Origin: an uncultured Verrucomicrobiota bacterium
GTDB taxonomy: Bacteria > Verrucomicrobiota > Verrucomicrobiia > Palsa-1439
Assembly: GCA_903825435.1 (NCBI GenBank)
Contig: CAIKAP010000111.1
Coordinates: forward strand, 1 to 58,859
Direction of reading: 5' to 3'
DNA: 58,859 nucleotides
A program made the translations under genes and the position numbers. Within the stretch, counting starts at the first letter, position 1; the number at the start of each line of letters is the position of its first letter. Positions 1,396 through 29,543 of this stretch are shown piece after piece. The notes beneath the pieces were generated by a model. That model was given only the letters and a program-made list of their open reading frames with translations, searched no databases and had not been told where the DNA came from.

Positions 1396-1420
1396 GGGAC
1401 ACTCCTTTCGCCGGGCGCGG

Positions 1421-2620: not shown

Positions 2621-2702
2621 TCCAGTCAACTTGACACTGCTGTCCCGTGTAGAATCCCTTAGGTTTCTTGCTTTGGTCACTATACAGCGCAACCGGCGCT
2701 GG

Positions 2703-3620: not shown

Positions 3621-5132
3621 ATGATTGTGTCTCGCTCCAGTCATTGGCCCCGCAAGCAAATCCTGCTGGCAGTGGCTGATGGATTATGCGCTGCCTTGGC
3701 GGTTGTCATGGCGGTGATGTTGCGTCTTGGGCCGGTGGAAGGACTGGCGTATCTGCAGATGCACCTCACGACGATTGCAATAGCATGGACCCTTTACCTT
3801 CTCTCCTTCTACATCTGCGGTCTCTACGAGGTGCCCACCATGCAACGCGTCAGTCGCATGCTGACAACGGCGATCCTGGCAGTGGCGTTAGGTTCGCTCC
3901 TGACGACATCGGTGTTTTATGTAAACTTCTCACTGGAAATGGGACGCGGCATCTTCTTGGGGTTCGCGGGGTTTGTGTTTGCTGCCATCGTCGCCAACCG
4001 CCTATTCTATATAGCGGCCAACCGCAGCGGCTTCCTCGCGCAACGGTGCCTGATCATCGGCACCAACGGCGAAGCACGCAAGACCGTCCAACTCATCCAA
4101 CGGTACCAGCATCATGGCCTTCGCATTTTCGGAATGATCCACTGCGGCCAAAAACACGATATAATCGGGCAGTTTATCGAAAACTACCCCGTCCTCGGCA
4201 CACTCGATTCGCTGGAAAGATTTGTCCATCTCTACGATGTCGAACGCATAATCCTAGCCACTACCGCCGACGAGGAGACGCTCCTGCTCAAACGCCTTCG
4301 CTCCTTCCGCTATCGCGGCCTGGCGATTGTAGATTTCATCACGCTTTACGAGGAATTGGCTCAGGAAATCCCCATCGACTACATCAACGACGAGTGGCTT
4401 TTCCTCGCCTCCCTCAACAACTCCCGCATCCACATCCGCCGCCTCAAACGACTGACCGACATCTTCGTTGCAATCATCAGTCTCATCGTCACTGCCCCAC
4501 TAACCGCGTTGGCAGCACTGCTGATCAAACTCACATCCACCGGCCCAATCCTCTACTATCAGGAACGGCTTGGGCGCGACAGCATTCCGTTCATGCTGCT
4601 GAAGTTCCGCACTATGATCACCGACGCCGAAAGCCAGACCGGCCCCGTCTGGGCAGCCGACAACGACCCTCGCATCACGACTGTAGGCAAGTTACTCCGC
4701 AAAACTCGCATCGACGAGATCCCTCAACTCGTCAATGTCCTCCGAGGCGAGATGAGCCTTGTCGGTCCCCGTCCAGAGCGTGCCGTTTTCATTCAGAAGC
4801 TCTCAGAGAAAATCCCGTTCTACGCTGAACGGCTTTTGGTACCGCCAGGTGTCACAGGTTGGGCGCAGGTTATGGCGCCGTATGCCGCCAGCGTCGAAGA
4901 GACTCGCCGCAAGCTCCAATACGACCTCTACTACATCAAACACATGTCCTTCTTCCTTGATATCTTCATTTTCATGAAGACAATCAAAACCGTGATTTTC
5001 GGACGCGAACGCAAGAAACAAATCGCCCCAGAGCCGTCCGTCCCCCAGCACGAGGTTATCAAGACCGATACCATCTTTCTCAACTCCGCCAAGCACGACA
5101 TCTCCTCCAAAGAGAAACAGAAACTGGCGTAA
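3621..5132 (+). CDS. Polyprenyl-phosphate hexose-1-phosphate transferase (WbaP/EpsE-type)
   Basis: This inner-membrane enzyme starts exopolysaccharide or O-antigen repeat units by moving sugar-1-phosphate from a UDP-sugar to undecaprenyl phosphate. The 503-residue product has four to five N-terminal membrane segments (about residues 12-125) and a Rossmann-like CoA-binding middle domain (CLIIGTNGEARKTVQLI). It ends in the bacterial sugar transferase domain (about 275-460) with LLKFRTM, LRKTRIDEIPQL, MSLVGPRPE, PPGVTGWAQV and YDLYYI. The sugar cannot be read from sequence. No other polysaccharide genes lie beside it. The C-terminal tail after about residue 465 is polar and not conserved in the family. 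Confidence 0.92.
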   Translation: MIVSRSSHWPRKQILLAVADGLCAALAVVMAVMLRLGPVEGLAYLQMHLTTIAIAWTLYLLSFYICGLYEVPTMQRVSRMLTTAILAVALGSLLTTSVFYVNFSLEMGRGIFLGFAGFVFAAIVANRLFYIAANRSGFLAQRCLIIGTNGEARKTVQLIQRYQHHGLRIFGMIHCGQKHDIIGQFIENYPVLGTLDSLERFVHLYDVERIILATTADEETLLLKRLRSFRYRGLAIVDFITLYEELAQEIPIDYINDEWLFLASLNNSRIHIRRLKRLTDIFVAIISLIVTAPLTALAALLIKLTSTGPILYYQERLGRDSIPFMLLKFRTMITDAESQTGPVWAADNDPRITTVGKLLRKTRIDEIPQLVNVLRGEMSLVGPRPERAVFIQKLSEKIPFYAERLLVPPGVTGWAQVMAPYAASVEETRRKLQYDLYYIKHMSFFLDIFIFMKTIKTVIFGRERKKQIAPEPSVPQHEVIKTDTIFLNSAKHDISSKEKQKLA

Positions 5133-5198
5133 TTCCGCTAGATTTTCCCCTTGCGTCGAGTACCATCCTCTACCTCCAAGGAGGACACCGCATAATTC

Positions 5199-6038
5199 AT
5201 GAAAGAGTATCTCGACCTTGTTCGTCTCGTTCTTGAAAACGGCACACCGAAACAGAGCCGCACCGGAGTGGATACCATCTCCTATTTCTGCCCCTTCTAC
5301 AGCGTCAACCTTGCCAACGGCTTCCCGCTCCTCACCACTAAGGAAGTCAACTTTGCCGCCTGCCTCCGTGAACTTCTCTGGTACCTCTCCGGCGAAGACC
5401 ACATCCGCAACCTCCGCCAGCACACCAAAATCTGGAACGCATGGGCCGACGAACATGGCAACCTCGAAACCGCCTACGGCCGCTACTGGCGCCGCTTCCC
5501 GCATCCCTACCAAGACGGCCACGGCAAATGGCGCGTCCGGGAAGTGGACCAGATCCAATACATCATTGACACCCTCAAGAAAGAACCCACCAGCCGACGC
5601 CTCGTCGTCACCGCATGGGAACCCGGCAACGCCGAGACCAGCAAACTCCCACCCTGCCACTACAGCTTCGTCTTCAACGTCCAGGGCGATCACCTCAACT
5701 GCCACCTCACCCAACGCAGCGGTGACATCGCGCTCGGCATCCCGTTCAACCTCGCCTGCTACGCCACCCTCACCCAGATGATCGCCCATGAAGTCGGCCT
5801 ACAAGTTGGTCACTTCGCTCACACCATCATCGACGCCCACATCTACACCACCCGTCCCGGCAACGGCATGGAAGAATACGACCACATCCCCGGTCTCCGC
5901 GACCAACTCACCCGCGAACCGCATCCCCTTCCCCGCCTTATCATCGCCGACAAACCTTTCAACGAACTCCGCTTCGAGGACTTCCGCATCGAAGGCTACA
6001 ACCCGCACCCGAAGATCAAATTCAAAGTCGCCGTATGA
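5199..6038 (+). CDS. thyA: Thymidylate synthase
   Basis: ThyA methylates dUMP to dTMP using methylenetetrahydrofolate and releases dihydrofolate. The 279-residue protein has Arg21 in the phosphate-binding loop (SRTGVDT), the nucleophile Cys153 in KLPPCHYSF, and the dUMP contacts QRSGDIALGIPFN and HIYTT. A strong aaggagg lies about 14 bases before the ATG. It overlaps folA by four bases (ATGA), so the dihydrofolate it makes is recycled by its translationally coupled neighbour. dUMP could come from the dUTPase-like protein at 56118. Confidence 0.97.
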   Translation: MKEYLDLVRLVLENGTPKQSRTGVDTISYFCPFYSVNLANGFPLLTTKEVNFAACLRELLWYLSGEDHIRNLRQHTKIWNAWADEHGNLETAYGRYWRRFPHPYQDGHGKWRVREVDQIQYIIDTLKKEPTSRRLVVTAWEPGNAETSKLPPCHYSFVFNVQGDHLNCHLTQRSGDIALGIPFNLACYATLTQMIAHEVGLQVGHFAHTIIDAHIYTTRPGNGMEEYDHIPGLRDQLTREPHPLPRLIIADKPFNELRFEDFRIEGYNPHPKIKFKVAV

Positions 6039-6490
6039 ACATCGTCATCATCGCCGCCATCGCTCCCGACGGCACCATCGGTCACCAAGGCCGTCTTCCC
6101 TGGCATCTGCGTGAAGACCTCCAGCATTTCAAAGCTGTCACCATGGGCCACACCCTCATCATGGGACGTAAGACCTACGACTCCATCGGCAAACCCCTCC
6201 CCGGCCGCCGCAACATCGTCCTCACCCGCGGTTCCGCCATCCCCGGCATCGAATGTTTTCCCAGCCTCGACGCCGCACTCAAAGCTTCCGGCGACACGAC
6301 CATCTTCATCATCGGCGGCACCGAAGTTTACCACCAAGCATTGCCCCTCGCCGACACCCTCCTCGTCACCCACGTCCACAGCGACATCCACGGCAACACC
6401 AAGTTCCCCAACTACGACCGTACCAAATGGCATGAAGTCTCTCGCACAAAATCCACTGACTGCGACTTCGCTGAGTATCAACGCGTCTGA
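6035..6490 (+). CDS. folA: Dihydrofolate reductase
   Basis: This NADPH-dependent enzyme reduces dihydrofolate to tetrahydrofolate. The 151-residue protein has the family hallmarks: N-terminal IVIIAAIAPDGTIGHQGRLP, WHLREDLQHFK with the active-site acid, MGRKTYDSIGKPLPGR for cofactor binding, and FIIGGTEVYHQAL. It starts inside the thyA stop (ATGA), the usual thyA-folA coupling. Length is slightly short but complete. Confidence 0.96.
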   Translation: MNIVIIAAIAPDGTIGHQGRLPWHLREDLQHFKAVTMGHTLIMGRKTYDSIGKPLPGRRNIVLTRGSAIPGIECFPSLDAALKASGDTTIFIIGGTEVYHQALPLADTLLVTHVHSDIHGNTKFPNYDRTKWHEVSRTKSTDCDFAEYQRV

Positions 6491-6589
6491 CATCTACCCA
6501 CACACGACGCACTGACCTTAATGTTCTAGTTGTGAATTTCGCGGTTTTCTGTTGCACCCACCGCCTGTCGCCGCTATTTTTCTCGCACC

Positions 6590-7894
6590 TTGAACCCGCT
6601 GAAACAACTGAACATCGGCTTGGTCGGCGCCGGTGTCGTCGGCGGCGGCGTTGTGAAGAACCTCACACGCAACGCCGACCTAATCGCCGACCGACTCGGC
6701 TTGCGGCTGCATCTGAAATGGGTCTGCGACAAGGATGCCGCACGACTCGCCGCACTGCCGCTACCCAAGAGCGTCAAGACAGATGACATGCAACAGGTGC
6801 TTGGCGATCCCGACGTACCGGTGGTTGTTGAACTTGTTGGCGGCACCGGGTTCGCGAAGAAACTGATCCTCGATGCGCTCGGTCGGGGCAAGATCGTCGT
6901 CACAGCAAACAAGGCGTTGCTCGCGCACGATGGCGAGGAGATTTTCAAGGTGGCGGCGAAGAACAAGACGAACCTGTTCTACGAAGCCAGCGTTTGCGGC
7001 GGCATTCCGATCATCAAGGCGCTGCGCGAGGGATTCGTCGCCAACCAATTTCCACTCATCTACGGAATTGTCAACGGCACCTGCAATTATATCCTCAGCC
7101 GCATGAGCGAGGAGGAAAAAGATTTCGACGAAGTGCTTGCCGAGGCGCAGAAGCTCGGCTACGCCGAAGCCGATCCCGGACTAGACATCGATGGGGTTGA
7201 CTCAGCCCACAAGGCGACCATCCTCGCCTCGCTTGCGCACGGGTTCTGGACCGGCTATGACAACGCCTACGTTGAGGGGATCCGACACGTTTCGCAAATG
7301 GACATCCAAGTCGCACGCGAACTGGGCTATGCTATCAAGCTGCTCGCCATCATCAAGAGCACCAACGAGGCCGTCGAGGTGCGAGTCCACCCGACATTGA
7401 TCCCGCAGCGGCACGTGCTCGCCAGCGTCACCGGTGTGTTCAACGCCGTTGCCGTGCGCGGCGATGTCGTGGGGGACGCGATCTTCTACGGACGCGGCGC
7501 GGGTGCCGATGCGACCAGCAGCGCGGTGATCGCCGATCTCGCGGACGCCGCGTTGAACTTGCGGGACGGCAGCATTCAGCGCGTGCCGGCGTTTGTGTCG
7601 CACCGGCTGCAGCCGAAGATGCGGACAATTGACGACGTGGAGTCGCGTTACTATTTACGCCTAACTGTCGAGGACCGAGCCGGGGTGATCGCAAAGGTTT
7701 CGAAGGTGCTCGGCGACGCTGATATCAGCATCGCGTCGGTCTTGCAGCGCGAGTCGGAAACCAACCGCGTCCCGCTGATCATGATGTTGCACACGGCGAA
7801 GGACCGGGCGGTACGCGACGCGGTCACTCAGATTGACCGTCTCGATGTGGTGAAGGACAAGACGGTGGTCTTGCGAGTGGAGAGTTTTGATTGA
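6590..7894 (+). CDS. hom: Homoserine dehydrogenase with C-terminal ACT domain
   Basis: This enzyme reduces aspartate semialdehyde to homoserine, on the way to threonine and methionine. The 434-residue protein has an N-terminal NAD(P) fold (GLVGAGVVGGGVVKNL), VVTANKALLAHDG, the catalytic segment GIVNGTCNYILSRM, and PGLDIDGVDSAHKATILASL. A C-terminal ACT domain from about residue 350 (YYLRLTVEDRAGVIAKV) suggests threonine feedback inhibition. The frame opens at a TTG at 6590 with no obvious ribosome site. A start a few codons later cannot be excluded. It lies one base from lysC, so the pair forms an aspartate-pathway operon. Confidence 0.95.
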   Translation: MNPLKQLNIGLVGAGVVGGGVVKNLTRNADLIADRLGLRLHLKWVCDKDAARLAALPLPKSVKTDDMQQVLGDPDVPVVVELVGGTGFAKKLILDALGRGKIVVTANKALLAHDGEEIFKVAAKNKTNLFYEASVCGGIPIIKALREGFVANQFPLIYGIVNGTCNYILSRMSEEEKDFDEVLAEAQKLGYAEADPGLDIDGVDSAHKATILASLAHGFWTGYDNAYVEGIRHVSQMDIQVARELGYAIKLLAIIKSTNEAVEVRVHPTLIPQRHVLASVTGVFNAVAVRGDVVGDAIFYGRGAGADATSSAVIADLADAALNLRDGSIQRVPAFVSHRLQPKMRTIDDVESRYYLRLTVEDRAGVIAKVSKVLGDADISIASVLQRESETNRVPLIMMLHTAKDRAVRDAVTQIDRLDVVKDKTVVLRVESFD

Positions 7895-7895
7895 T

Positions 7896-9110
7896 ATGGC
7901 ACTGATCGTACAGAAATACGGAGGCACATCCGTCGGCAACCCCGAACGGATCAAAAACGTCGCCAAGCGCGTCCTAGAGACGCAGCAGGCCGGCAACCAG
8001 GTTGTCGTGATCGTCTCCGCAATGAGCGGCGTGACAGACAACCTGATTAAACTGGCAAAGGAAGTCCATCCTGAGCCGAACGAGCGCGAGATGGATGTCT
8101 TGCTGGCGACCGGTGAACAGACCACCATCGCATTGCTGGCGATGGCGCTCCACAGCCTCGGCGCGAAAGCCGCCTCGTTGACCGGCGCGCAGGCCGGCAT
8201 CGTCACCGACGGCGTCCACACCAAGGCCAAGATTGCTAACATCACCCCGAAACGCGTCCACGAACTCCTCGATACCGGTAATATCGTCATCATTGCCGGG
8301 TTCCAAGGTGAGACGACCGAGGGACACATCACCACACTCGGCCGTGGCGGCAGCGACCTCAGCGCCATCGCCATCGCGGCAGCGGTGAAGGCGGATGTCT
8401 GCCAGATTTACACCGACGTGGATGGCGTGTACACCGCAGACCCTCGCATCATCCCCGACGCGAAAAAGATTTCCGAAATCAGCTACGACGAGATGCTGGA
8501 AATGGCCGCACTCGGCTCCAAGGTCATGCAAGCTCGGTCGGTCGAGTTCGCAAAGAAGTTCAACGTCGTTTTTGAAGTCCGAAGCAGTTTCAACAACAAC
8601 CCAGGAACCATCGTGAAATCCGAAACCTCGAAAATGGAAGACGTCGTCATTCGCGGCGTTGCCGTTGACAAAAAACAAGCCAAGGTCACCATCGCTGGTG
8701 TACCGGATAAGCCGGGCGTAGCCGCTAAGGTCTTCAAGACCATCGCTAACGCTAACATCAACATTGATGTCATCGTCCAAAACGTCAGCGCGAAGGGCAC
8801 GACCGACATTTCGTTCACCGTCGGCGACACCGACGCCGCAAAGGCGGCGAAGGTGCTTCAGCCCGTCGTCAAAGAGATCGGCGCTCGTGAAGTCACCTCG
8901 ACTGGCAACATCGCTAAGCTCAGCGTCGTCGGCATCGGCATGCGCAGCCATCCCGGCGTCGCGGCGAAGATGTTCGAGACTCTCGCTAGTGATGGCATCA
9001 ACATCGGCATGATCTCCACTAGCGAAATTAAGATCAGCGTCATCATCGCATTGAAGGACGCTGACAAAGCGGCAGGCGCCATTCATAACGCATTCGGACT
9101 CGCAAAGTGA
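7896..9110 (+). CDS. lysC: Aspartate kinase, lysine-sensitive type
   Basis: Aspartate kinase phosphorylates aspartate at the entry of the lysine, threonine and methionine pathways. The 404-residue protein begins MALIVQKYGGTSVG and has the kinase segment GRGGSDLSAIAIA, YTDVDGVYTADPR, and two C-terminal ACT domains (about residues 265-400) that bind feedback inhibitors. The ATG at 7896 is chosen over an upstream in-frame TTG. The single-base spacing from hom indicates cotranscription. Together with hom it feeds threonine and methionine synthesis. Confidence 0.96.
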   Translation: MALIVQKYGGTSVGNPERIKNVAKRVLETQQAGNQVVVIVSAMSGVTDNLIKLAKEVHPEPNEREMDVLLATGEQTTIALLAMALHSLGAKAASLTGAQAGIVTDGVHTKAKIANITPKRVHELLDTGNIVIIAGFQGETTEGHITTLGRGGSDLSAIAIAAAVKADVCQIYTDVDGVYTADPRIIPDAKKISEISYDEMLEMAALGSKVMQARSVEFAKKFNVVFEVRSSFNNNPGTIVKSETSKMEDVVIRGVAVDKKQAKVTIAGVPDKPGVAAKVFKTIANANINIDVIVQNVSAKGTTDISFTVGDTDAAKAAKVLQPVVKEIGAREVTSTGNIAKLSVVGIGMRSHPGVAAKMFETLASDGINIGMISTSEIKISVIIALKDADKAAGAIHNAFGLAK

Positions 9111-17485: not shown

Positions 17486-18976
17486 CTATAACCCAATGAC
17501 CAGCGTTTTGAGAAGCGCAACAATCGGCTCGGGAAAGACACCCAGAATAATGACACCCACTGCGCAGATCGCCAACGCCATATTCACGTGCCCCGGCGTG
17601 GCGATCCGTGTCTCGTCCTTCGCGGGCATGACGTAAAAGTGTTTCAGCAGGATCAGATAGTAATACAACGACACAGCGCTCATCAGAATGCCCAGCACCA
17701 CCAGCCAGAGCAGGCCGAAGTTTTGTGCGTCGCGCTCGACCGCCGCGGCGAATAGGTAGAACTTACCGAAGAACCCGCCCAGCGGCGGCACGCCCGCCAG
17801 TGACAGAATGAAAACAAGCATCAACAGCGACAGGAACGGTGCCCGTTTCGCCATGCCGTTGAAATGCTCCAAGTCGCCGCCGCCAGCGCGGGCCGAGAGC
17901 GCGGCCACGACGCCGAACGCGCCGAGATTGGTGAGCGCATACACAATCACGTAGAACAACACCGCCGTCGCGCCCGTGCTGGTCGCGGCAACGAGGCCGA
18001 TGAGGATGTAGCCCGCGTGCGCGATGCTGGAGTACGCCAGCAAACGTTTGACGTTTGTCTGGACGATGGCCGCACAGTTACCGAGTAACATGCTCGCCGC
18101 CGCCGTTATGCCTAGCACCATTGCCCAGCCCGACGAAAACGCGCCCCAGTACGCCGACCCAGCCGCACCGGCGAAGCCGATCATCAGCACTTTCACCAAC
18201 ACGAAGAAACTTGCCACCTTCGATCCCGTCGCGATAAACGCCGTCACCGGCGTTGGCGCGCCTTCGTACGCATCGGGTGCCCAGAGGTGGAACGGCACCA
18301 TCGCCACCTTGAAGCCGAGACCGACGAGCACGCACAACAAGCCGACCGCGAGCAACGGATTCGTCCCCTTCCCTGCCAGCGCCGTGCCGATGTCGCGCAG
18401 GTGTGTCGCGCCGGTCAGGCCGTAGATGTAGCTCAGGCCGAACAATAGGAACGCCGATGAAATCGCGCCGAACAGGAAATACTTCAGTGCCGCCTCCTGC
18501 GAGCGGAGCGAGTTCTTGTGGAACGCGGTGAGCACGAACAGGCTGATGCTGGTCAGTTCGAGCGCCACGAAGATTGTCAACAGTTCCTCCGAGCCGACCA
18601 GCAACAGCATCCCGATCGCACCGAACAACAGCATCGCAAAATACTCGCCGACGTGCGTGCCGATATCGTGATCCACCGAGATCAACACCGTCAACGCCGT
18701 CAGCACGATCAGCACGAACTTGAAGATGACCGTCAACGGATTCACCGCGAGCGTCTCACCCATGAGCGGCACATTCGTCAGTCCGACCTGCCACACCAAC
18801 GGCACCGCCGCCAACGCCAGCCCGATCAATGTCACCGCACCGACCAGTTGCCGCCGCGCGCCCAGATCGCGTTTGCGTCCGACGACCAAGTCGAGCGTCA
18901 ACACGCCCATCGCCACCACCGCCAGCGATATCTCGCTGCTCAAAGCGCGGAAGATTTGTGCGTAGGCCCCGCTCAT
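17486..18976 (-). CDS. nuoN: NADH-quinone oxidoreductase subunit N
   Basis: NuoN is one of the antiporter-like proton-pumping membrane subunits of complex I. The 496-residue protein has about 14 membrane helices, the conserved glutamate in LELTSISLFVL, and lysines in FHKNSLRSQEAALKYF and YEGAPTPVTAFIATGSKVASF. It overlaps the upstream nuoM by four bases and is the last nuo gene of the operon. Length is normal for the family. Confidence 0.95.
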   Translation of the reverse strand: MSGAYAQIFRALSSEISLAVVAMGVLTLDLVVGRKRDLGARRQLVGAVTLIGLALAAVPLVWQVGLTNVPLMGETLAVNPLTVIFKFVLIVLTALTVLISVDHDIGTHVGEYFAMLLFGAIGMLLLVGSEELLTIFVALELTSISLFVLTAFHKNSLRSQEAALKYFLFGAISSAFLLFGLSYIYGLTGATHLRDIGTALAGKGTNPLLAVGLLCVLVGLGFKVAMVPFHLWAPDAYEGAPTPVTAFIATGSKVASFFVLVKVLMIGFAGAAGSAYWGAFSSGWAMVLGITAAASMLLGNCAAIVQTNVKRLLAYSSIAHAGYILIGLVAATSTGATAVLFYVIVYALTNLGAFGVVAALSARAGGGDLEHFNGMAKRAPFLSLLMLVFILSLAGVPPLGGFFGKFYLFAAAVERDAQNFGLLWLVVLGILMSAVSLYYYLILLKHFYVMPAKDETRIATPGHVNMALAICAVGVIILGVFPEPIVALLKTLVIGL

Positions 18977-20463
18977 GGCATTCCTTTCAGGAAGATGTCC
19001 ACGTTCGCCTGGATCATGTCGAGCATCACCGACGGGAACAAACCGATAATCACAAGCGCAGCCATCAACATCACCGCCGCCACAATCTCGGGCACGGTGA
19101 TCGGCGGCAACGCGTGAACTTCCGCCGTGCCGTGATGTTCGTCATCTTTGCCGAAGAACACCTTGTGGATCGCGTTCAGGATATATGCCGCAGTCACCGC
19201 GATGCTTAACGCCGCTGCGACAGCCAGCCACGGACTCATCTTAAACGCACCGATCAACACCTGAACCTCCGCCACAAACCCGCTGAACCCCGGCATTCCC
19301 ATCGAAGCCGCGCCGCCAATCACAAACGTCACGCAGGCGAACGGCAGCGTCTTCGCTAGCCCGCCCAGTTCGTCAAGCTGTCGCGTGTGCGTCCGATCAT
19401 AAACCATTCGGCCGACAACGGCGAAAAGCAGGCTCGCGACGATGCCGTGCGAGAACATCTGCAAGATCGCGCCGGACATGCCGTCGCGGTTGAGCGTCGC
19501 CAAGCCGAGCAGGACGAAGCCCATGTGGCTGACGCTGGAGTAGCCGATGATGAACTTGAAATCTTTTTGCACCAGCGCCACCGCCGCGCCGTAGAGGATG
19601 CCGATGACACCGAGCCACGCGATCCACCATTGCCAGTGCGCCAGCCCCGACGGGAACACCAGCATTGCAGCACGCAGGCAGCCGTAGCTGCCGAGCTTCA
19701 TCACGACGCCCGCCAGCAACATCGAGGCCGCTGTCGGCGCCGCGACATGGCCGGTCGGCGCCCACGTGTGGAACGGCCACATACCGGCCAGCACGGCGAA
19801 CCCGACGAAGATCAACGGGAACACCCAGACCTGAATTTGTCCAGCGATGGGATGCCGGGCCAATTCAAGGATGTCGAACGTCTGTCCGCCACCCGCGAAG
19901 AACGCTGCGAGGATGCCGATGAACACCGCCGCGCTGCCGATGAATGAGTACAGCACCAGCTTCATCGCGCCGTACTCTTTCCGGGTCGAACCCCAGATGG
20001 CGATGATGAAATACTTCGGCACGATGGCCAACTCGTAGAACACGAAGAGCAGGAACAAATCCATCGCCATGAACACGCCGTACACACCGGCAATCAAGGT
20101 CAGGAAAAACGCGAAGAACTCCTTCACCCGTTCCTCGATGTTCCAACTGAAGAGGATGCCGGTCACGCAGACGATGCCATTGAGCAACACGAGCGGGAAA
20201 TTCAGGCCATCCACGGCGAGGTGATAGTGCACGCCGAGCGACGGAATCCATGCGACGTTAGCCAAGTGCCAGAAGCCGTCCTTGAGCGGCTGGTTCGCGT
20301 CGACCCAGCCGTTGTAGGCGATGTAGTTTTGCAGCCCGATGCCCAGCCCGATCACGCCGGTCAGGAGTGCGACCCAGCGGATCAGGTTCTTCGCGTTGCG
20401 CGGCAGAAGCATGATAAGCCCCGCGCCGAGGAACGTCACATAAATTGTCCAGTCAGTGCGCAT
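18973..20463 (-). CDS. nuoM: NADH-quinone oxidoreductase subunit M, second copy
   Basis: This is a second NuoM-type antiporter-like subunit, 496 residues, starting one base after the stop of the first nuoM. It shows the family motifs VFYELAIVPKYFIIAIWG, FHTWAPTGHVAAPTAASMLL and GYSSVSHMGFVLLGLA, with the Glu in the first and the conserved Lys in DFKFIIGYSSVSH. It differs widely from the other NuoM in this operon, so this is an old duplication or a distinct subunit type rather than a recent copy. It overlaps nuoN (ATGA). Confidence 0.93.
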   Translation of the reverse strand: MRTDWTIYVTFLGAGLIMLLPRNAKNLIRWVALLTGVIGLGIGLQNYIAYNGWVDANQPLKDGFWHLANVAWIPSLGVHYHLAVDGLNFPLVLLNGIVCVTGILFSWNIEERVKEFFAFFLTLIAGVYGVFMAMDLFLLFVFYELAIVPKYFIIAIWGSTRKEYGAMKLVLYSFIGSAAVFIGILAAFFAGGGQTFDILELARHPIAGQIQVWVFPLIFVGFAVLAGMWPFHTWAPTGHVAAPTAASMLLAGVVMKLGSYGCLRAAMLVFPSGLAHWQWWIAWLGVIGILYGAAVALVQKDFKFIIGYSSVSHMGFVLLGLATLNRDGMSGAILQMFSHGIVASLLFAVVGRMVYDRTHTRQLDELGGLAKTLPFACVTFVIGGAASMGMPGFSGFVAEVQVLIGAFKMSPWLAVAAALSIAVTAAYILNAIHKVFFGKDDEHHGTAEVHALPPITVPEIVAAVMLMAALVIIGLFPSVMLDMIQANVDIFLKGMP

Positions 20464-20464
20464 G

Positions 20465-22024
20465 TCAAAAGAGTCTCACCAAAGCCAGCACGGCGTCGTT
20501 GGCCGCGTCGAGCAACGGCGCCGGATAGATGCCGATCAGGAACATGAACAGCATCAACACCGCGCCGATGAACAGCTCGCACGCCGTCATATCGGGCAGC
20601 CATTGCCATTTCTCGTTGAGCGGGCCGAAACAGACTTTCTGCATCATCTGGAGCAGGAACACCGCTGTCACCACGAGACCGATGGTCGCTACGACCGTCA
20701 CGGTCGTCACGACCGGGAACGCGCCTTTGAAAATAAGGAACTCGCCGACAAACCCGTTCAACCCCGGCAAGCCGAGCGACGAGAACATCGTGATGCCAAG
20801 TACACCGGCATAGATCGGCATGATCTTTCGCAGCCCGCCGTACTCGGCCAGCGCGCGCGTGTGCGTGCGGTCGTAGATGACGCCGACCATGAAGAACAGC
20901 GCCGCCGAGCTGATGCCGTGGTTGAACATCTGGAGCACTGCGCCGTTGAGTGCCGCCGCCTTCTCGTTCAACATCTCCGGCCCCGCAGTCGCCGCAGTGG
21001 CGAAGATGCCGAGCATGGCGTAGCCCATGTGGTTGACGGAGGAGTATGCGACGAGCCGTTTGAAATCAGTCTGCGCCAGCGCCGCAAACGCGCCAAGCAC
21101 GATGCTCGCAAGCGCCAGCAGCAACAGGATATCCACGTGTGCCGCTACCTGCGACGGGAAGATCGGCAGGACGACCCGCAGGAAACCATAGACACCCATC
21201 TTCAACAGAATCGCCGCCAGCACCATCGAGCCGCCGGTCGGCGCCTGCGTGTGGGCATCGGGAAGCCACGTGTGGAACGGCCAGATCGGCACCTTGATGG
21301 CGAAGCCGACGAGCGTCGCCCAGAACAACACCGACGTGAACGTCGTGACGTTCCAGTGCCAGCCGAACCGCCCATTCACGTCGCCGACGAACACGGCGAT
21401 CTTCTTCGCGAGGTCGCCGTTGGCAGCCAACGAACGCAGTTCGACGAAGTCGAATGTGCCCGTCGCCATCCAGAGGAAGCCAAACGCCACCAGCATCCCG
21501 ATGCTTCCGGCGAGCGTGTAGATGAAGAACTTGAAGGAAGCGTAGGTCCGGTTCTCGTGTCCCCAGATCTTGATGAGGAAGAACATCGGGATCAGGCCGA
21601 GTTCCCAGTAGATGAACCAGTGGAAGAAGTTCAGCGCAGTGAACACGCCGAACATGCCGGTCTGCAGCAGCAGGAACAGGAAGAAGAACAGCTTCACATT
21701 GTCCTTCAGTTTCCAGTGCGCCAGCATCGCCAGCGGCGTGACCAACGCCGTCAGGAACACCATCGCGATGCTCAAGCCGTCCACGCCGACGTAATAGTCC
21801 ACATGCAACGCCGTGATCCACGAATGACGCTCAACAAACATCATGCCGGCACTCGGCACGAACCGCGTCCAGGCACAGAACGTCAACAGCAATGACGCCA
21901 CGCTCGCGCCGAGCGCGGCGACCTTCATCGCGCGTTCCTGCGTCTTCGGCAGCAGCAACACCACTAGCGACCCCGCCAGCGGCAGGAAGGTGATCAACGA
22001 AAGATATGGGAGGCCGGGTTTCAT
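20465..22024 (-). CDS. nuoM: NADH-quinone oxidoreductase subunit M, first copy
   Basis: The 519-residue NuoM-type proton-pumping subunit starts at the ATG at 22024 (MKPGLPYLSL), which overlaps the nuoL stop. Motifs: WELGLIPMFFLIKIWG with the conserved Glu, FHTWLPDAHTQAPTGGSMVL, and DFKRLVAYSSVNHMGYAMLG with the conserved Lys. A longer frame runs upstream inside nuoL but is only shadow. It belongs to a run of four antiporter-like subunits (L, M, M, N), one more than standard complex I. Confidence 0.95.
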   Translation of the reverse strand: MKPGLPYLSLITFLPLAGSLVVLLLPKTQERAMKVAALGASVASLLLTFCAWTRFVPSAGMMFVERHSWITALHVDYYVGVDGLSIAMVFLTALVTPLAMLAHWKLKDNVKLFFFLFLLLQTGMFGVFTALNFFHWFIYWELGLIPMFFLIKIWGHENRTYASFKFFIYTLAGSIGMLVAFGFLWMATGTFDFVELRSLAANGDLAKKIAVFVGDVNGRFGWHWNVTTFTSVLFWATLVGFAIKVPIWPFHTWLPDAHTQAPTGGSMVLAAILLKMGVYGFLRVVLPIFPSQVAAHVDILLLLALASIVLGAFAALAQTDFKRLVAYSSVNHMGYAMLGIFATAATAGPEMLNEKAAALNGAVLQMFNHGISSAALFFMVGVIYDRTHTRALAEYGGLRKIMPIYAGVLGITMFSSLGLPGLNGFVGEFLIFKGAFPVVTTVTVVATIGLVVTAVFLLQMMQKVCFGPLNEKWQWLPDMTACELFIGAVLMLFMFLIGIYPAPLLDAANDAVLALVRLF

Positions 22025-24000
22025 TTCAGATACCAGATCACCAGTAGAATCACCGCGCCCAGGCACAGGATGCGCAGGTAGCCTTGGATGCGGCCGGTTT
22101 GGAGCTTCGCGAACTCGCGCCCCGTCAACCGCACGCCCTCGCAACCGGCATCGAACCCGCCGTTGATGACGAACTCGTCGCCAACCCAGCGCACGACTTG
22201 CGACACGCCCCACGCCGTCCACGCGATACCGTGGAGGATGCCGTCAATGACACGATTGTCGAACACCCGCCAGAACTCGCCGAGCAGCATCGTCGCGCGG
22301 ATGATCGTCGCGTCGTAGAACTCGTCCACGTACCATTTCCGGTTCAGGCAGGTGAACAGCGCGCCAAGCTTCACCTCCAACGGGTCCGGTTCCTCTGCGT
22401 GCGCCATTGTCTTGCGCCCGTACATGAGCCAGCCAAGCAGGATGCCCGCCGCGCCGACTGCGACCGACAACCCCATCACGAGCGACTTGCCGTGCAGTTC
22501 CTCTTCATGAACGCCGAGATAGTGTTCGTACTTGCCGCCAAAGAAACCGAGCCCGATGGCGAACACGCTCAGCACCGCGATGGGTAACCACATATTCCAT
22601 CGCACTTCATGCGGCTCGTGGTGACCGCCCCGCCATTTCCCGGCAAAGACCATGAACATCTGCCGTGTCATGTAAAACGCCGTCAGGAACGCCGCAAACG
22701 TCGCCAGCCCCCACGCCACCTTGCTCCGCTGGAACGTCACCAGCAGCACCTCGTCCTTCGAGAAAAACCCGGCAAACGGCGGCACGCCTGCCAGCGCCAA
22801 CATGCCGATGAGATAGCACCAAAACGTGATCGGCATGTATTTCCTCAAGCCGCCCATCTTCCGCATGTCTTGCTCATGGTGCGTGCCGATGATCACGCAG
22901 CCGGAGCCGAGGAACAACAACGCCTTGAAGAACGCATGAGTCAATAAATGGAATTGTCCAGGCACCAGCCCACCCGCGCCGAGCGCCATCATCATAAAAC
23001 CGAGTTGCGAACAAGTCGAATACGCCAGCGCCCGTTTGATGTCGAACTGCCCCACCGCGATCGTTGCCGAGAACAACGCCGTGAAACACCCAACCCACAG
23101 CACCATGTCCATCGCAAACGTCGGATGCTCCGCCGAGCCGCCTGCCGTGAACAACGCGAACATCCGTCCCACCATGAACACGCCTGCCGCCACCATCGTC
23201 GCCGCGTGAATCAGCGCCGACACCGGCGTCGGACCTTCCATCGCGTCGGGCAACCACACATGTAACGGGAACTGCGCGCTCTTGCCCATCGCGCCGATGA
23301 ACAGCAGCACCGCAATCGTCGTCGCCATGCTCCAGCCAAACCATCCGTGCAGCCCAGCCAGCTTGCCCGCCTGCTCCAGCGCGCCATTGCCGCCGTCGTA
23401 CAAATTCAACGTACCGGCCTGCCAGGAGAGCATCAGGATGCCGAGGAAGAATCCGACGTCGCCGATGCGCGTCGTGATGAACGCCTTCTTCATCGCCGTC
23501 GCTGCGCTCGGCTTGAAATACCAGAACCCGATCAGCAGATAGCTGCACAAGCCGACCAGTTCCCAGCACATGAACAGCATCAACAAATTATTAGCGACCA
23601 CCAGCCCAAGCATCGCCGCCGCGAATAGCGACAGGAAACAGAAGAACCGCGTGAAATTCTCGTCGTCGGACATGTAGCCGGTGGCGTTGACGAAGATCCA
23701 GAACCCGACAAATGTCACCATCAACGCCATCGCCGCCGTCATGGGGTCGAGGATGAAGCCGAGTTGCAGCCGCGTCGTGCCGTAATCGAACCAGACGAAG
23801 TTCCAGACCGCGCGTTCCGCCTCGTGATGCCCCAGCGTGCCGACAAACGCCCGCAACGCCAACACGCACGACGCGCCCATCGCCGTCAGGCAGATACCCG
23901 CCGACAATTTCCGCGCCTTGCGCGGCAATAGCGATTGCACCGCCGCCGCCACCAGCGGCAGGAACGGGATCAGCCATTGTTGTTTGACGAGTTCGTTCAT
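22021..24000 (-). CDS. nuoL: NADH-quinone oxidoreductase subunit L with extended lateral helix
   Basis: NuoL is the distal antiporter-like subunit, which reaches back along the membrane arm with a long lateral helix. The 659-residue product shows FMCWELVGLCSYLLIGFW, FPLHVWLPDAMEGPTPVSAL and QFDIKRALAYSTCSQLGFMM. Near the C-terminus the usual order is a VDG..NG-type segment, then LQTG and a last helix. Here about 28 residues (604-632, DNA 22105-22191, including GDEFVINGGFDAGCEG) appear inserted before LQTGRIQGYLR. A longer lateral helix would suit an arm holding an extra NuoM. It overlaps nuoK (ATGA). Confidence 0.94.
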   Translation of the reverse strand: MNELVKQQWLIPFLPLVAAAVQSLLPRKARKLSAGICLTAMGASCVLALRAFVGTLGHHEAERAVWNFVWFDYGTTRLQLGFILDPMTAAMALMVTFVGFWIFVNATGYMSDDENFTRFFCFLSLFAAAMLGLVVANNLLMLFMCWELVGLCSYLLIGFWYFKPSAATAMKKAFITTRIGDVGFFLGILMLSWQAGTLNLYDGGNGALEQAGKLAGLHGWFGWSMATTIAVLLFIGAMGKSAQFPLHVWLPDAMEGPTPVSALIHAATMVAAGVFMVGRMFALFTAGGSAEHPTFAMDMVLWVGCFTALFSATIAVGQFDIKRALAYSTCSQLGFMMMALGAGGLVPGQFHLLTHAFFKALLFLGSGCVIIGTHHEQDMRKMGGLRKYMPITFWCYLIGMLALAGVPPFAGFFSKDEVLLVTFQRSKVAWGLATFAAFLTAFYMTRQMFMVFAGKWRGGHHEPHEVRWNMWLPIAVLSVFAIGLGFFGGKYEHYLGVHEEELHGKSLVMGLSVAVGAAGILLGWLMYGRKTMAHAEEPDPLEVKLGALFTCLNRKWYVDEFYDATIIRATMLLGEFWRVFDNRVIDGILHGIAWTAWGVSQVVRWVGDEFVINGGFDAGCEGVRLTGREFAKLQTGRIQGYLRILCLGAVILLVIWYLK

Positions 24001-24308
24001 CCCTTCAACGCTTTCATCTCATCCACGTCTACAGACCGATAATGCCGGTACACCGAGATCACCAACGCCAGGCCGACTGCCGACTCCGCCGCCGCGACTG
24101 CAATCGCGAACAAGGCGAACATCTGGCCCGTCAACGCGCCGTTGTGGAGGTAGTACCAAAACACCACGAAATTCAGGATCGCCGCGTTGAACATGATTTC
24201 GATGCTCATCAGCACCGCGATGGCGTTCTTCCGCGTCAACGCGCCGCACAGCCCGATGCAGAACAAGACGCCGCCGAGCATCAAATAATATCCGAGCGGC
24301 ACACTCAT
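23997..24308 (-). CDS. nuoK: NADH-quinone oxidoreductase subunit K
   Basis: The 103-residue membrane subunit forms part of the proton path near the quinone arm. It has three helices with conserved glutamates in LMSIEIMFNAAIL and VAAAESAVGLAL. The ATG at 24308 sits in the nuoJ stop (ATGA), and its own stop overlaps nuoL. Confidence 0.95.
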   Translation of the reverse strand: MSVPLGYYLMLGGVLFCIGLCGALTRKNAIAVLMSIEIMFNAAILNFVVFWYYLHNGALTGQMFALFAIAVAAAESAVGLALVISVYRHYRSVDVDEMKALKG

Positions 24309-24811
24309 CGCTTCTTCTCCTCCTCCAACGCGATGACCACCGCGCCGATCAACGCCGCCGTCAACAACACCGCCATGATCTCCAACGGCACCACCCAATC
24401 GGTCACCAGCAGCTTGCCAATCTCCTTCACGACGCCTTCCTCGGTCGCACCGTACGGCAACTTCGTCACCAATTCGCTTCGACGCACAAACACACACATC
24501 ATCCCCGCCAGCGACGACGCGAGGCCGACGCCGAGCCACCACGCGCCACCAAGCGAGCTGCGTCCGCCTTCTGTTCCGGAAATGTTCCGGGTGAGCATGA
24601 TCGCAAACAGAATCAGCACCGCCACCGCGCCGATGTAGATCAAAATCTGAGCCGCGCCCAAAAAGTCCGCCTTTAACAGGAAGAAATGCCCGGCGATACC
24701 GAGGAAGAACACCACCAGCGCCAGCAGGCAATGCACGAGGTTGCGCAGCGTCACCGCCAGCACCGCGCCGAGCACCATTATCGCAGACAATGTGAGGAAA
24801 ACGATGTTCAT
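24305..24811 (-). CDS. nuoJ: NADH-quinone oxidoreductase subunit J
   Basis: The 168-residue, five-helix membrane subunit carries the signature FLGAAQILIYIGAVAVLILF, whose tyrosine-containing helix undergoes the turnover-linked twist in complex I. It overlaps nuoH upstream and nuoK downstream by four bases each. A perfect copy of the GTTCCGG repeat lies inside (24573-24590), encoding RNISGT in a loop. Confidence 0.94.
   Translation of the reverse strand: MNIVFLTLSAIMVLGAVLAVTLRNLVHCLLALVVFFLGIAGHFFLLKADFLGAAQILIYIGAVAVLILFAIMLTRNISGTEGGRSSLGGAWWLGVGLASSLAGMMCVFVRRSELVTKLPYGATEEGVVKEIGKLLVTDWVVPLEIMAVLLTAALIGAVVIALEEEKKR
24573..24590 (+). repeat. GTTCCGG-N4-GTTCCGG repeat, copy 2 (perfect)
   Basis: GTTCCGG at 24573-24579 and 24584-24590, spacer AAAT, inside nuoJ. 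The sense (minus) strand carries CCGGAAC. Confidence 0.85.
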
Positions 24812-25962
24812 GACGTGAACCGGTAACTCCGTTTCTCAAACGTCTGTCCTGCGTTGATTTTCACCAGCGCGACAATCGCCACCGCCAGCAATACCGCCGA
24901 CTCGACCCAACCAACCAGCTTGTTCGGCGCAAAATGCCAGACCGCCATTGCCACGATGTTCACGAGCGACAACGGCAACAAAAGTTTCCACGCAAAGCCG
25001 AGCAATTGATCCACGCGCACGCGCGGCCAAGTGCCGCGCGCCCAGATATTGATGACCACGATGATGCCGAGCTTTGCAAAGAACCAGCACGCCGAGATCA
25101 GCCAGCCGAACTTTGGCAGGTCGCAGCCCGGCCCAAGATAACCGCCGAGGAACATCGTTACCGTGATGCCGCCCATCGTGATTGCAGCGACGTACTCGCC
25201 CATCTGGAACAGCGCAAATTTGAAGCCGCTGTACTCCGTGTGATAGCCCGCGACGATTTCCGACTCCGCTTCCGGTAAATCGAATGGCGTCCGCGCCACT
25301 TCCGCCATCGCGCACAATTGGAAGATGACAAACCCGACAAGCCCCCACGGCTTGCAGACGAACCAGCCGGTCAGACCGCGTTGCGCCTCGACGATGCTGA
25401 CGCTCGACAACGACCCCGACGCCATCAACACCACGACCGCAGCCAGCACCATCGGCACCTCGTAGCTCACGACCTGCGCCACGCCGCGCATCGCGCCGAG
25501 CAGCGAGAACTTGTTGTGCGATGCCCAGCCCGCCATGAACAGCGCCAGCACGCTCGCAGTGCTAACCGCCAGCGCGAACAACACGCCGATGTTCAAATCC
25601 ACCGCAATGAACCCTTTCGCCACTGGTACGACCGCGAGCACCATGAACGCCGGCACCACGACCAGCACCGGCGCAAGAAAATGCACGACCTTGTCTGCCG
25701 CGTTCGGAACAATGTCCTCCTTTGTCAGGAGCTTCAGCCCGTCCGCAATCGGCTGGAACAGCCCGACCGGCCCGACCCGGTTCGGGCCGCGACGGTTCTG
25801 GATTCGTCCGAGCGCTTTTCGCTCGACCCACGTCAGCAGCGCGAACACGGTCAGGAACACGCCCATCACGATGGCAATCGGCAGCAGAATCGCCAGTGCC
25901 AGCGCCAGCCAGTCCGGCATCGTCGGGCAGTAGTCGTGGATCAGTTGGTAGATGGCGTCCAT
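24808..25962 (-). CDS. nuoH: NADH-quinone oxidoreductase subunit H
   Basis: NuoH anchors the peripheral arm and forms much of the quinone chamber. The 384-residue protein has eight to nine helices with WVERKALGRIQNRRGPNRVG, GLFQPIADGLKLLTKED, and the acidic loop FDLPEAESEIVAGYHTEYSG. The last two are the family's most conserved cytosolic loops and are intact. It lies 3 bases after nuoI and overlaps nuoJ. Confidence 0.96.
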   Translation of the reverse strand: MDAIYQLIHDYCPTMPDWLALALAILLPIAIVMGVFLTVFALLTWVERKALGRIQNRRGPNRVGPVGLFQPIADGLKLLTKEDIVPNAADKVVHFLAPVLVVVPAFMVLAVVPVAKGFIAVDLNIGVLFALAVSTASVLALFMAGWASHNKFSLLGAMRGVAQVVSYEVPMVLAAVVVLMASGSLSSVSIVEAQRGLTGWFVCKPWGLVGFVIFQLCAMAEVARTPFDLPEAESEIVAGYHTEYSGFKFALFQMGEYVAAITMGGITVTMFLGGYLGPGCDLPKFGWLISACWFFAKLGIIVVINIWARGTWPRVRVDQLLGFAWKLLLPLSLVNIVAMAVWHFAPNKLVGWVESAVLLAVAIVALVKINAGQTFEKRSYRFTS

Positions 25963-25965
25963 GCG

Positions 25966-26931
25966 TTAGAGCTTGCCCGCCTCCTTCAACAACTTCTCCA
26001 GCATATTCTTCGTCTCTTCCTCGCCCGGCGTGCAGAGCGTGAAATCGCTGTTGGTGCCCGACGCGAGCGCGTCGGCGTATCCGCGACAATCATACCCGCA
26101 TGCCTGGCAATCGAGTTGCGCCATCGCCGCCATCAACTTGTCGGCCAGCGAACGATCCTTCGCCAACTCCATGCGCGCGGCAATATCGATCCCGGAATCG
26201 TGCCACGGCGTGCCGGTTGGCAACGGCGCCGCGCTGACATTTTGTTCCGTATTTGTTCCGGCCACCTTTTTCTTCACGACGACCGGTGGTGGCCAGACTA
26301 TTGGACCGGTGCCGATCTCGCTTTGGCAGCCCCGTTGCCACGCGCTCCGCTCGTCTTCGGTCAGGATGTCTGCTGGCGTCGGCATCGGCTTTACCGGTGC
26401 TGGCGCAGCGGCTTTCTTCACCGGTTTCCGCGTCGCGTCAACGCGGGTCGCTTCGGCGGATTTGATCTGGTGGTAATAGTCGTTCGATTTCAGGAGTTCA
26501 GGCAGGTGCGACAGCAACGTCTCGAACCGGCCGTGCGCACTGCGCTCGAAGTCGCAGTCCATCTTGATGGCGTTGGTCGGACAAACTTCGGCGCAGATGC
26601 CGCATTGCATGCAGACGCTGATGTCGATGTCGAACACGCGCGGGCGAAGGAGCGGTTTGCCGTTGGCGTCGCGTTCCATGACGATGTAGATGCATTGCGG
26701 CGGGCATTCGGTCTCGCAAACCTTGCACGCGGTGCAACGCATCTGGTCGGGCGTGCCGTCGTACACAAGGAACGGGAAGGTGCGGGAGTTCTCCGGTAAC
26801 TTCATCCGCTCTTCGGGATACTGGTAGGTAAAGAGGCGGTCTTTGCGGTTGCCGTCGAAATAGCTGGTGACGAAATTCTTCGCGGTGACGACGAGGCCGT
26901 CGATCATGCCTTTGCCGAGGAGGTTGCTCAT
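25966..26931 (-). CDS. nuoI: NADH-quinone oxidoreductase subunit I with C-terminal Fe-S extension
   Basis: The 321-residue product is about twice the usual NuoI length. Residues 1-130 are a normal NuoI with two [4Fe-4S] motifs (Cys66, 69, 72, 76 and Cys107, 110, 113, 117), which carry electrons to NuoB. A helical stretch and a Pro/Ala/Lys-rich linker (about 160-260) follow. The last 50 residues hold [17 protein letters not shown] and LCTPGEEE, giving Cys275, 278, 282 and 300. This resembles small [4Fe-4S] domains of the RnfB/CdhG type (PF04060-like). The ATG at 26931 overlaps the nuoD stop. Since nuoEFG are absent here, the extra cluster could receive electrons from a donor other than NADH; that is inference. 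Confidence 0.9.
26244..26261 (+). repeat. GTTCCGG-N4-GTTCCGG repeat, copy 3 (one mismatch)
   Basis: GTTCCGT at 26244-26250 and GTTCCGG at 26255-26261, spacer ATTT, inside the NuoI linker region. The sense strand carries the CCGGAAC orientation, read as GTNTEQN. Confidence 0.7.
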
Positions 26932-28049
26932 CGGTCCACCTCGCCCAATACGATGTCCACGCTGCCGAGAATGATGACGGTGTCGGCGACTTTCTGGCCG
27001 AGGCACATATCTTCGAGAATGGTCAGGTTGATGAAGCTTGGCGGACGAACGTGATAGCGGTACGGTTTCGCGCCGCCCTCGGAGACGAGATAGAAACCGA
27101 GTTCGCCCTTCGGTGCTTCGATGCGACCGTAACCGTCGCCTGCGGGGACTTTGAAATTGCGGAGCTTCGCCTCGGGCGCGATGAACGGGCCAGCGGGAAT
27201 GTCGCGCAAGGCTTGTTCGAGGATCTTCACCGCCTCGCGCATTTCGAGGATGCGGATCATGTAACGGTCGAACGTGTCGCCAGCCTCGCCGACGGGCACG
27301 CCGAAATCGAAGCGGTCATAGACGCCGTACTTGTCCACCTTGCGGATGTCGTACTCGACGCCGCTGGCGCGCGCGACGGGGCCGCTGACGCTGGCGTTGA
27401 TCGCGAGGTTGCGCGACAGGATGCCGACGCGCTGGGTGCGCGCAAGAAGGACTTCATTCTCGGTCATCAGCTTCTCGAACTCGTCGAGGAACGCGGGCCA
27501 ACGAGCAACGATGTTGCGCGCCATCGCGAGCGAAGCGTCGTCGAGGTCAACGCGGACGCCGCCGAAACGCATGTAGTTGCACATCATGCGGGCACCGCTG
27601 ACGGTCTCAAAGAAATCAAGGATCCATTCCCGCTCGCGCAGCGCGTACAGCACCGGTGTGAACCACGCGCCGCAATCGCTGAGCAGGAATCCGATGGCGC
27701 AGGAATGGTTCAACAGGCGCGTCAGTTCCGCCATGATGACGCGTATGTACTCGGCGCGCTCCGGGACTTTCAAGCCCGTCATCTTCTCAACAGCGAGCGC
27801 GTAGGCCCAGTTGTTGGTCATCGAACAGAAATAATCGAGGCGGTCGGTGTACGGCATCGAACCGAGCCACGTCATCTTCTCGGCGAGTTGCTCGTGGTTG
27901 CGGTGAAGGTAGCCCATCACCGGCTTCAGTTTCACGACGTACTCGCCGTCGAGCACAACGTCCATCCGGAACACGCCGTGCGTGCTCGGGTGTTGCGGGC
28001 CGAGCGAGACTTCGAGCGTCTGCGTCTGGATGATGCCGGTTGCGCTCAC
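26928..28049 (-). CDS. nuoD: NADH-quinone oxidoreductase subunit D
   Basis: NuoD forms the quinone-binding site with NuoB and descends from the hydrogenase large subunit. The 373-residue protein shows [35 protein letters not shown], and the C-terminal [15 protein letters not shown]. The GTG at 28049 overlaps the nuoC stop (GTGA). The longer frame upstream lies inside nuoC. Length is standard, with no NuoC fusion. Confidence 0.95.
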
Positions 28050-28576
28050 TTCTTGGCCTCCAGCGCGCTTGCCGGCACCGTGCCGCCGGTCTGCTTGGCG
28101 CGGGCGAGCGTTTCGGCGTGCGGCGTCGGCTCCCACTCGTAATCCATCGGCGGGACGTAATCTTTCCGCATCGGATGATCAACGAACTCGTCCCACATCA
28201 GGATGCGGCGCAGGTCGGGATGACCGTCGAACTTCACGCCGTACAGGTCAAACGCCTCGCGCTCCTGGTACTCGCAGCCGCGCCATACCGGCGTCAACGA
28301 CGGCATGCGGCATTGCTCCAGCGCACGCGGGGCGCGCACCTTGAGCGCGACCGGGCCGTGTTTCAACGCCACTGAGTAGAGATGATAGACGACCTCGATG
28401 CAGTCCTGCTTGATATAGTCCACCGCTGTCACACACGAACAGAAATCCAATTGCAGTTGCGGGTCGGTCTTGAGGAATTGCGCGACGGCCACCGCCTCCT
28501 CGCGTTCCACCAGCAACGACGACTTCGCCGCGCCAGCGGAGAGCATCTCGCGAACTTGTTCGAGGGGCGGAATCAC
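28046..28576 (-). CDS. nuoC: NADH-quinone oxidoreductase subunit C
   Basis: The 176-residue peripheral-arm subunit shows [19 protein letters not shown] and [20 protein letters not shown], the family signature. I start it at the GTG at 28576, which overlaps the nuoB stop (GTGA) like its operon neighbours. Another in-frame GTG at 28594 would add six residues. The C-terminal 30 residues are variable. Confidence 0.92.
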
Positions 28577-29172
28577 TTTTTCGGCGGCTCCCACACCTTC
28601 GGATTGGCGGGCGGCTCAAGATCGTGAGCGCCGTATTGCGGAACAGGAAACTCGGAAGGCGCATTCTTGTCGTACCAGGACACCTCGTTCAGGTGCTGCT
28701 TGGAAATCTTCTCCTGCAACGTCATCAGCGCGTGCAACAACGCCTCCGGGCGCGGCGGACAACCGGGAATGTGAATGTCCACGGGAATGTAACGGTCAAC
28801 GCCTTTCAACACATTGTAGCCGTCCTTGAACGGCCCGCCGGAGATGGCACACGCGCCCATTGCGATGACGTATTTCGGTTCCGGCATTTGATTGTAGAGC
28901 CGCACGACTTGCGGGGCCATCTTCTTTGTCACCGTACCCGACACGATCATCAAGTCCGCCTGACGCGGTGACGCGCGGAACACTTCCGCACCGAACCGCG
29001 CCATGTCGTGACGCGCCGCGGCGGCGGCGATCATTTCGATGGCACAACAAGCGAGGCCAAACTGGATGGGCCAGAGCGAGGATTTGCGGCTCCAGTTGTA
29101 CAGGAACTCGACCGGCATCACGAAGATGCCCTGCTTCTGGAGTTCGCTCTTGAGATTGGGGTCAACGGCCAT
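28573..29172 (-). CDS. nuoB: NADH-quinone oxidoreductase subunit B
   Basis: NuoB carries cluster N2, the last Fe-S cluster before quinone. The 199-residue protein has the tandem cysteines in [10 protein letters not shown], plus [11 protein letters not shown] and [10 protein letters not shown] with the other ligands. The ATG at 29172 has a ggaag ribosome site provided by the end of nuoA. A C-terminal tail of about 35 residues (ending [14 protein letters not shown]) is longer than in E. coli. Confidence 0.95.
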
Positions 29173-29174
29173 GG

Positions 29175-29543
29175 CTACTTCCAATCCAACGCGCCTTTAG
29201 CCCACGCGTACACGAATCCTTCGACCAGCAACAGCACGAACACCATCATCGCCACAAACGCCCCGAAGCTCAGCTCGCCAAACGCCACCGCCCACGGGTA
29301 CAGGAAGATGGTTTCAACGGCAAAAATCACATAGACGAGTGCATACAGGTAATAGCCGGCGCGAAATTGTATCCACGCGTCGCCTTTGCCCGCCAGACCG
29401 CACTCGTAGGTTGCGTTCTTCGTCGACGACGGTTTGCGTGGCGCCAGCAGCCGCACCAGTGCCAGCGGCACCAACGGAAACACGACTGCCACCGCGAGAA
29501 ACACAGCGACGAACAGGTACTGAGTTAAATAAGTGTCCTTCAC
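29175..29543 (-). CDS. nuoA: NADH-quinone oxidoreductase subunit A
   Basis: The 122-residue membrane subunit has three helices and the loop [19 protein letters not shown] with the conserved Cys near the quinone site, then [21 protein letters not shown]. It starts at a GTG at 29543. It is the first gene of the operon; the region upstream is divergent to queE and must hold the operon promoter. Confidence 0.94.

Follow-up and report, generated by a model that had tools for sequence, protein, structure and literature searches.

The operon described here raises the question of whether a complex I with two different NuoM subunits, a lengthened NuoL and no NADH module could pump more protons per electron pair than its canonical counterpart, and from which donor it would take its electrons. 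It was found in an uncultured Verrucomicrobiota bacterium of the Palsa-1439 lineage, in a stretch of 58,859 nucleotides, analysed as a whole and hereafter called the window. We consider it likely, with a probability of roughly three in four, that the operon encodes a quinone-reducing proton pump of 12 subunits, a 2M-type complex I that lacks the NADH module, with a membrane arm L-M1-M2-N and a low-potential electron donor docking at NuoI.

Gene content of the operon and its relation to known 2M complexes

The operon comprises 12 genes in the order nuoABCDIHJKLM1M2N, all on the minus strand, from 29543 to 17486; according to the list of open reading frames and Pfam searches, it is complete and its genes are intact. 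It starts with nuoA (29175..29543; PF00507, E=1.9e-33), nuoB, encoding the subunit of cluster N2 (28573..29184; PF01058, E=7.7e-31), in which a tandem cysteine motif was read in the sequence, nuoC (28046..28594; PF00329, E=7.4e-40), separate from nuoD, and nuoD itself, encoding the quinone-site subunit (26928..28136; PF00346, E=1.8e-89, as well as NCBIfam NuoD models). Then come nuoI (25966..26931), nuoH (24808..25962; PF00146, E=2.2e-113), nuoJ (24305..24811), an open frame of 168 aa found as nuoJ in related operons, and nuoK (23997..24308, start approximate), which occupies the C-terminal part of the open reading frame 23997-24839 and was assigned by reading only, as a NuoK-like protein with two membrane glutamates. 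The antiporter-like genes are indeed four, as the first-pass annotation had claimed, and stand adjacent to one another, with ATGA overlaps at L/M1 and M2/N: nuoL (22021..24000; PF00361 and PF00662), nuoM1 (20465..22024), nuoM2 (18973..20463) and nuoN (17486..18976; PF00361), the last with its key residues intact in the pattern E-K-K-K. Both NuoM proteins far exceed the NDH_I_M cut-off of 263.8 bits (513.9 and 468.4 bits), NuoL and NuoN also lie above the cut-offs of their own curated models, and NuoL, M1 and M2 are under purifying selection (dN/dS 0.07-0.13). The core subunits NuoA, B, C, D, H, I, J, K, L, M and N are all encoded, while nuoE, nuoF and nuoG are absent from the operon.

The 2M complex I is known from other phyla, in which it was described by Chadwick et al. 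(2018, ISME J 12:2668), and has been reported in Nitrospira (PMC6606698), in Thaumarchaeota, where the clade is devoid of NuoEFG (PMC7300363), in Chloroflexi (PMC7117926, PMC8004040) and in Acidobacterium capsulatum (PMC11636273). According to the papers that cite Chadwick et al., this complex shares with the window operon a second NuoM between nuoL and nuoN, a lengthened lateral helix of NuoL and, in several clades, the lack of the NADH module; compared with these descriptions, the window operon differs in the additional 4Fe-4S domain of NuoI and in an M2 without the TM7 lysine. The 2M loci of Chloroflexi and Acidobacteria (Chloroflexus aggregans, Anaerolinea, Acidobacterium capsulatum) resemble it in the order L-M1-M2-N, which is common to the Chloroflexi 2M operons, although, unlike in the window, no nuoBCDI genes were seen beside the remaining genes of those Chloroflexi loci that were read. 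The clade 3 complexes of Nitrospira likewise possess the second NuoM and the long NuoL helix but differ in lacking nuoH, along with nuoE and nuoF, and in having an enlarged nuoG (PMC6606698).

Some 30 genomes, spread over many families of the class, contain the same operon with conserved gene content and order, and it is also present in Acidobacteria; the scan of genome contigs placed relatives harboring the operon in Verrucomicrobia, Opitutaceae, Spartobacteria, Acidobacteriaceae and Chloroflexi. From its position among these relatives, rather than from a marker gene, the source genome was also assigned to the Verrucomicrobiota. Contamination or a chimeric assembly was rejected, since the genus and the family of the source genome include other genomes with operons 83-91% alike in NuoL. 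NuoE, NuoF and NuoG are missing from every 2M operon read in the class. The first-pass annotation, which had noted the 2M pattern combined with a missing NADH module, was right about the absence of the module from the operon, but the combination is normal for the 2M type and not a special one. With its second NuoM, an insertion of about 26 residues in NuoL and no NADH module, the operon fits the 2M pattern, as had been suggested, and, judged by its sequence, it is a true member of this known kind, to which the NuoI domain is a family-specific addition.

Two side observations concern the distribution. A record named "Klebsiella pneumoniae isolate HRSG-E1-bin-52" (locus L089) contains a 2M operon, and as its subunits fall among those of Verrucomicrobiota and Acidobacteria, the Klebsiella name of this MAG is almost surely wrong. 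In loci L063 and L069 (of genomes G008 and G021), L and M1 are not directly followed by M2 and N; either the operon is split there, or M2 may have been lost.

The two NuoM subunits and the lysine of TM7

The two nuoM genes are different from each other, as originally noted. In trees built without any Nitrospira sequence, M1 of Verrucomicrobiota, Acidobacteria and Chloroflexi forms one group (support 100/97), and M2 of the same operons forms another, weakly supported one (82/28), adjoining the canonical NuoM of this class. The placement of both copies with the 2M operons of Chloroflexi and Acidobacteria answers the check that the first-pass annotation had proposed, a tree with known 2M subunits. 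A local tandem duplication was rejected as the origin of the pair, because M1 and M2 occupy different, well-supported regions of the tree; they are deep, old paralogues and, as each forms one group over three phyla, the pair has been kept together. A deltaproteobacterial 2M operon that includes NuoG (L164) has two NuoM proteins, both with the lysine, and its pair looks like a separate duplication.

M1 retains all four key charges (E141, K244, K275 and E428, corresponding to E144, K234, K265 and E407 of E. coli) and is expected to pump protons. In M2, E144, K256 and E399 are kept and a lysine, K150, is added in TM5, but the TM7 lysine, K234 in E. coli NuoM, is replaced by Leu225 (codon 19789..19791, from the alignment). 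The possibility, raised beforehand, that the second NuoM might lack the conserved glutamates and lysines therefore came true in part only: M1 has the full set and M2 three of the four. The replacement is not peculiar to the window. Among 110 NuoM sequences the TM7 position is occupied by lysine in 68 and by leucine in 42, and by no other residue; the leucine is found in 42/42 members of the M2 clade and the lysine in all 68 others. In a careful tree from which the TM7 column had been removed, a branch supported at 100/100 has all leucine-bearing proteins on the same side, and a single change explains the pattern. This clade includes the M2 of the Chloroflexi and Acidobacteria 2M operons, and since the former share the loss of the lysine, Leu225 does not exclude the window operon from the 2M type. 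It also includes the sole NuoM that the canonical complex I, with its 14 subunits, has in this class, for which reason the lysine-less protein is probably functional there. The neighbours of this canonical NuoM are unchanged (E-K-K-K in 8/8 NuoN and E-K-H-K-D in 8/8 NuoL). No charge replacing the TM7 lysine was found across the whole leucine clade, and a universal substitute was rejected, K150 being general only in the M2 of Verrucomicrobiota and Acidobacteria, with two further cases among the sampled Chloroflexi M2.

The mechanism reviewed in PMC10212512 makes the pair of TM7 lysine and TM5 glutamate central to every antiporter subunit, and the absence from M2 of a residue regarded as essential in current mechanisms counts against the main reading. 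One alternative to it starts from this pair: the four antiporter-like subunits would assemble, but only four protons would be translocated per two electrons, the lysine-less M2 serving as a charge relay or a spacer. The strict separation of leucine and lysine between the clades speaks in favor of it; on the other hand, the same lysine-less type probably works as the only NuoM of a canonical complex, and M2 itself preserves the TM5 glutamate, the TM8 lysine and the TM12 glutamate and evolves under purifying selection. We regard this alternative as less likely than not. One more proton per two electrons for 2M complexes is put forward as a hypothesis in the papers citing the original description, in which no measured value was found; for the complex of the window, too, more protons per electron pair, namely five per two electrons, is an unproven hypothesis. 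Given the lysine-less clade, the pumping of an additional proton cannot be deduced from a count of antiporter genes or from a long NuoL helix.

The lateral helix of NuoL

NuoL of the window (659 aa) has 78 residues between the anchors D559 of the WYVDEF motif and G636 of LQTG, against 52-53 in eight canonical NuoL proteins from its own class and 48 in the E. coli subunit, so that the alignment with the E. coli protein, advised by the first-pass annotation as a measure of the insertion, bears the insertion out. Its position had been given as residues 604-632, before LQTG, whereas the 26 extra residues fit best at 589-614 (22159..22236; the edges depend on the alignment), about 15 residues earlier. 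In E. coli coordinates, the insert falls between P552, which is at the L/M junction, and P564-N566, the closest contacts with NuoM (PMC3274701). AlphaFold2 predicts a single helix of 76 residues (555-630), followed by the last transmembrane helix (639-658), with pLDDT of about 50-60 across 601-640. A 26-residue insertion in the lateral helix of NuoL is quoted for a related case (PMC9040806).

Among the loci with a clear NuoM count, a sample drawn with an M1-like query and hence non-random, 52 combine two NuoM with a long helix and none combines two NuoM with a short one; a single NuoM goes with a long helix in 25 loci and with a short helix in 20. All 52 of the 52 NuoL proteins from clear two-NuoM operons have 76-81 residues between the anchors, so the association is not due to chance. 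As the long helix is also found in one-NuoM operons, it is no proof of four pumps, and the earlier interpretation of the insertion as a sign of an extra pump is not supported as it stood, 25 of 45 one-NuoM NuoL proteins carrying the same long helix; a similar remark has been made for Manganitrophaceae (PMC9040806). In a whole-genome search, six genomes with the long helix (G094, G098, G100, G102, G104 and G107), which are drafts with contiguous L-M-N runs, each proved to have exactly three genes of the antiporter-like type. Judging from these counts, the long helix looks necessary for a second NuoM without implying one.

It could be argued that the long helix is unrelated to the presence of a second NuoM and results from an old duplication of a segment, retained in many lineages. 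The 25 long-helix NuoL proteins with one NuoM, and the clear internal repeat of 26 residues in the lateral helix of several of them, can be cited for this explanation, and the independent changes of helix length and NuoM number on the NuoL tree are too few for a phylogenetic test; a similar repeat is seen in L164. Nevertheless, the complete absence of short helices from the 52 two-NuoM operons and the position of the insert over the region contacting NuoM in E. coli make it rather unlikely. In the window NuoL itself, an internal repeat as the source of the insertion was rejected, the repeat being not significant (p=0.45).

According to the 2M reading that we prefer, the lengthened helix would span the additional subunit, and we infer that both NuoM proteins belong to one complex, the order of the membrane arm being most likely L-M1-M2-N.

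As separate observations, long helices of 77-82 residues with a single NuoM occur in Ignavibacteria, Bacteroidetes, Marinimicrobia, Bacteriovoracaceae and others (loci L105, L107, L112, L114, L118, L123 and L133 among them), and one Chloroflexi NuoL (L103) has 100 residues between the anchors, owing to an extra loop before the long helix.

Electron entry at NuoI and the canonical complex I of the same genome

NuoI (321 aa) carries the two canonical 4Fe-4S motifs, identified by Pfam and NCBIfam models and by alignment, and a C-terminal extension in which a variable linker is followed by a domain with four cysteines (residues 245-321; 25969..26199). The domain matches NF004859, sulfite reductase alpha (E=1.6e-31), rnfB (E=2e-13) and PF04060; it corresponds to the N-terminal 4Fe-4S domain of sulfite reductase alpha (PRK06214) and of RnfB, but resides here on NuoI and is not accompanied by the flavin reductase part. 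The fusion was found in 6/8 members of the family of the source genome, with the four cysteines kept in 6/6, and was absent from every other NuoI examined; the Chloroflexi and Acidobacteria 2M loci that were examined showed no such fusion. Between two species of the genus the extra domain has a dN/dS of 0.23. Apart from NuoI, the genome contains no match to PF04060 and none to PRK06214. A sequence search of the domain against solved structures returned nothing meaningful, and the AlphaFold2 model of NuoI is poor (mean pLDDT 50.7), with only the C-terminal domain reaching about 60-89.

The tethered domain points to a low-potential donor, which we infer to be ferredoxin-like. The most likely entry point for electrons would be NuoI, supplied by a low-potential carrier (ferredoxin, for example) and assisted, in the family of the source genome, by the tethered 4Fe-4S domain; from NuoI the electrons would pass via NuoB to quinone. 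The opposite direction, with the proton motive force driving electrons from quinol to ferredoxin, is a published hypothesis for the 2M complexes of Nitrospira (PMC6606698, PMC12342949), and an extra pump would add driving force to such a reaction. For the organism studied here we find it rather unlikely, as 2-oxoacid:ferredoxin oxidoreductase domains are present in the genome, which, together with genes resembling those of a Hox-type bidirectional [NiFe]-hydrogenase, suggests that ferredoxin may also arise by oxidation. The latter genes, recognized by reading at 1232-8777 of locus L014 (contig C103), encode a maturation protease, a large subunit and HoxU-like and HoxF-like proteins.

Contig C186 encodes a separate canonical complex I that includes NuoG and a fused NuoEF, and its last genes are located on contig C49. 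Like its counterparts in the class, it differs from the 2M complex in having one NuoM, a short NuoL helix and NuoEFG. It is thus the 2M operon, and not the organism, that lacks the NADH module, and by its gene content the 2M complex, with which NuoE, NuoF and NuoG are not encoded, falls outside the NADH:quinone oxidoreductases. Although the fused NuoEF and NuoG could in principle be borrowed by the 2M membrane arm for oxidation of NADH, this is very improbable, given that their genes belong to an operon with its own NuoA-D and NuoH-J, that the NuoI proteins of the two operons are only 39% alike, and that EFG is lacking from all 2M operons of the class that were read. The canonical NuoE and NuoF are fused in one reading frame of 586 aa (L012, 3888-5648). 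Downstream of the second fragment of the canonical operon (L007, contig C49, 600-8719), a repeat array and a Cas4-Cas1-like fusion were observed, along with a large Cas12-like effector whose coding sequence is divided between two overlapping frames, recognized by reading only; the locus resembles a type V CRISPR system that may contain a frameshift.

Taken at its broadest, and as a tentative proposal to which we would give somewhat less than an even chance, the lysine-less NuoM clade to which M2 belongs may use a different proton path, both here and as the sole NuoM of the NADH-linked complex in this class, and the 2M complex of this family may receive its electrons via a new NuoI input domain acquired from a protein of the sulfite reductase or RnfB type. 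The NuoI fusion is a concrete lead to the electron donor of complexes devoid of NuoEFG. The lysine-less clade is the most interesting by-product of the analysis: the pair of TM7 lysine and TM5 glutamate is central in current models of complex I for every antiporter subunit, and a NuoM without this lysine, which is the only one in the canonical complex and has a complete NuoM as its partner in the 2M complex, offers a natural experiment to probe that role. Together with the additional domain of NuoI, an M2 of this kind makes the idea of an extra proton testable, though not assured.
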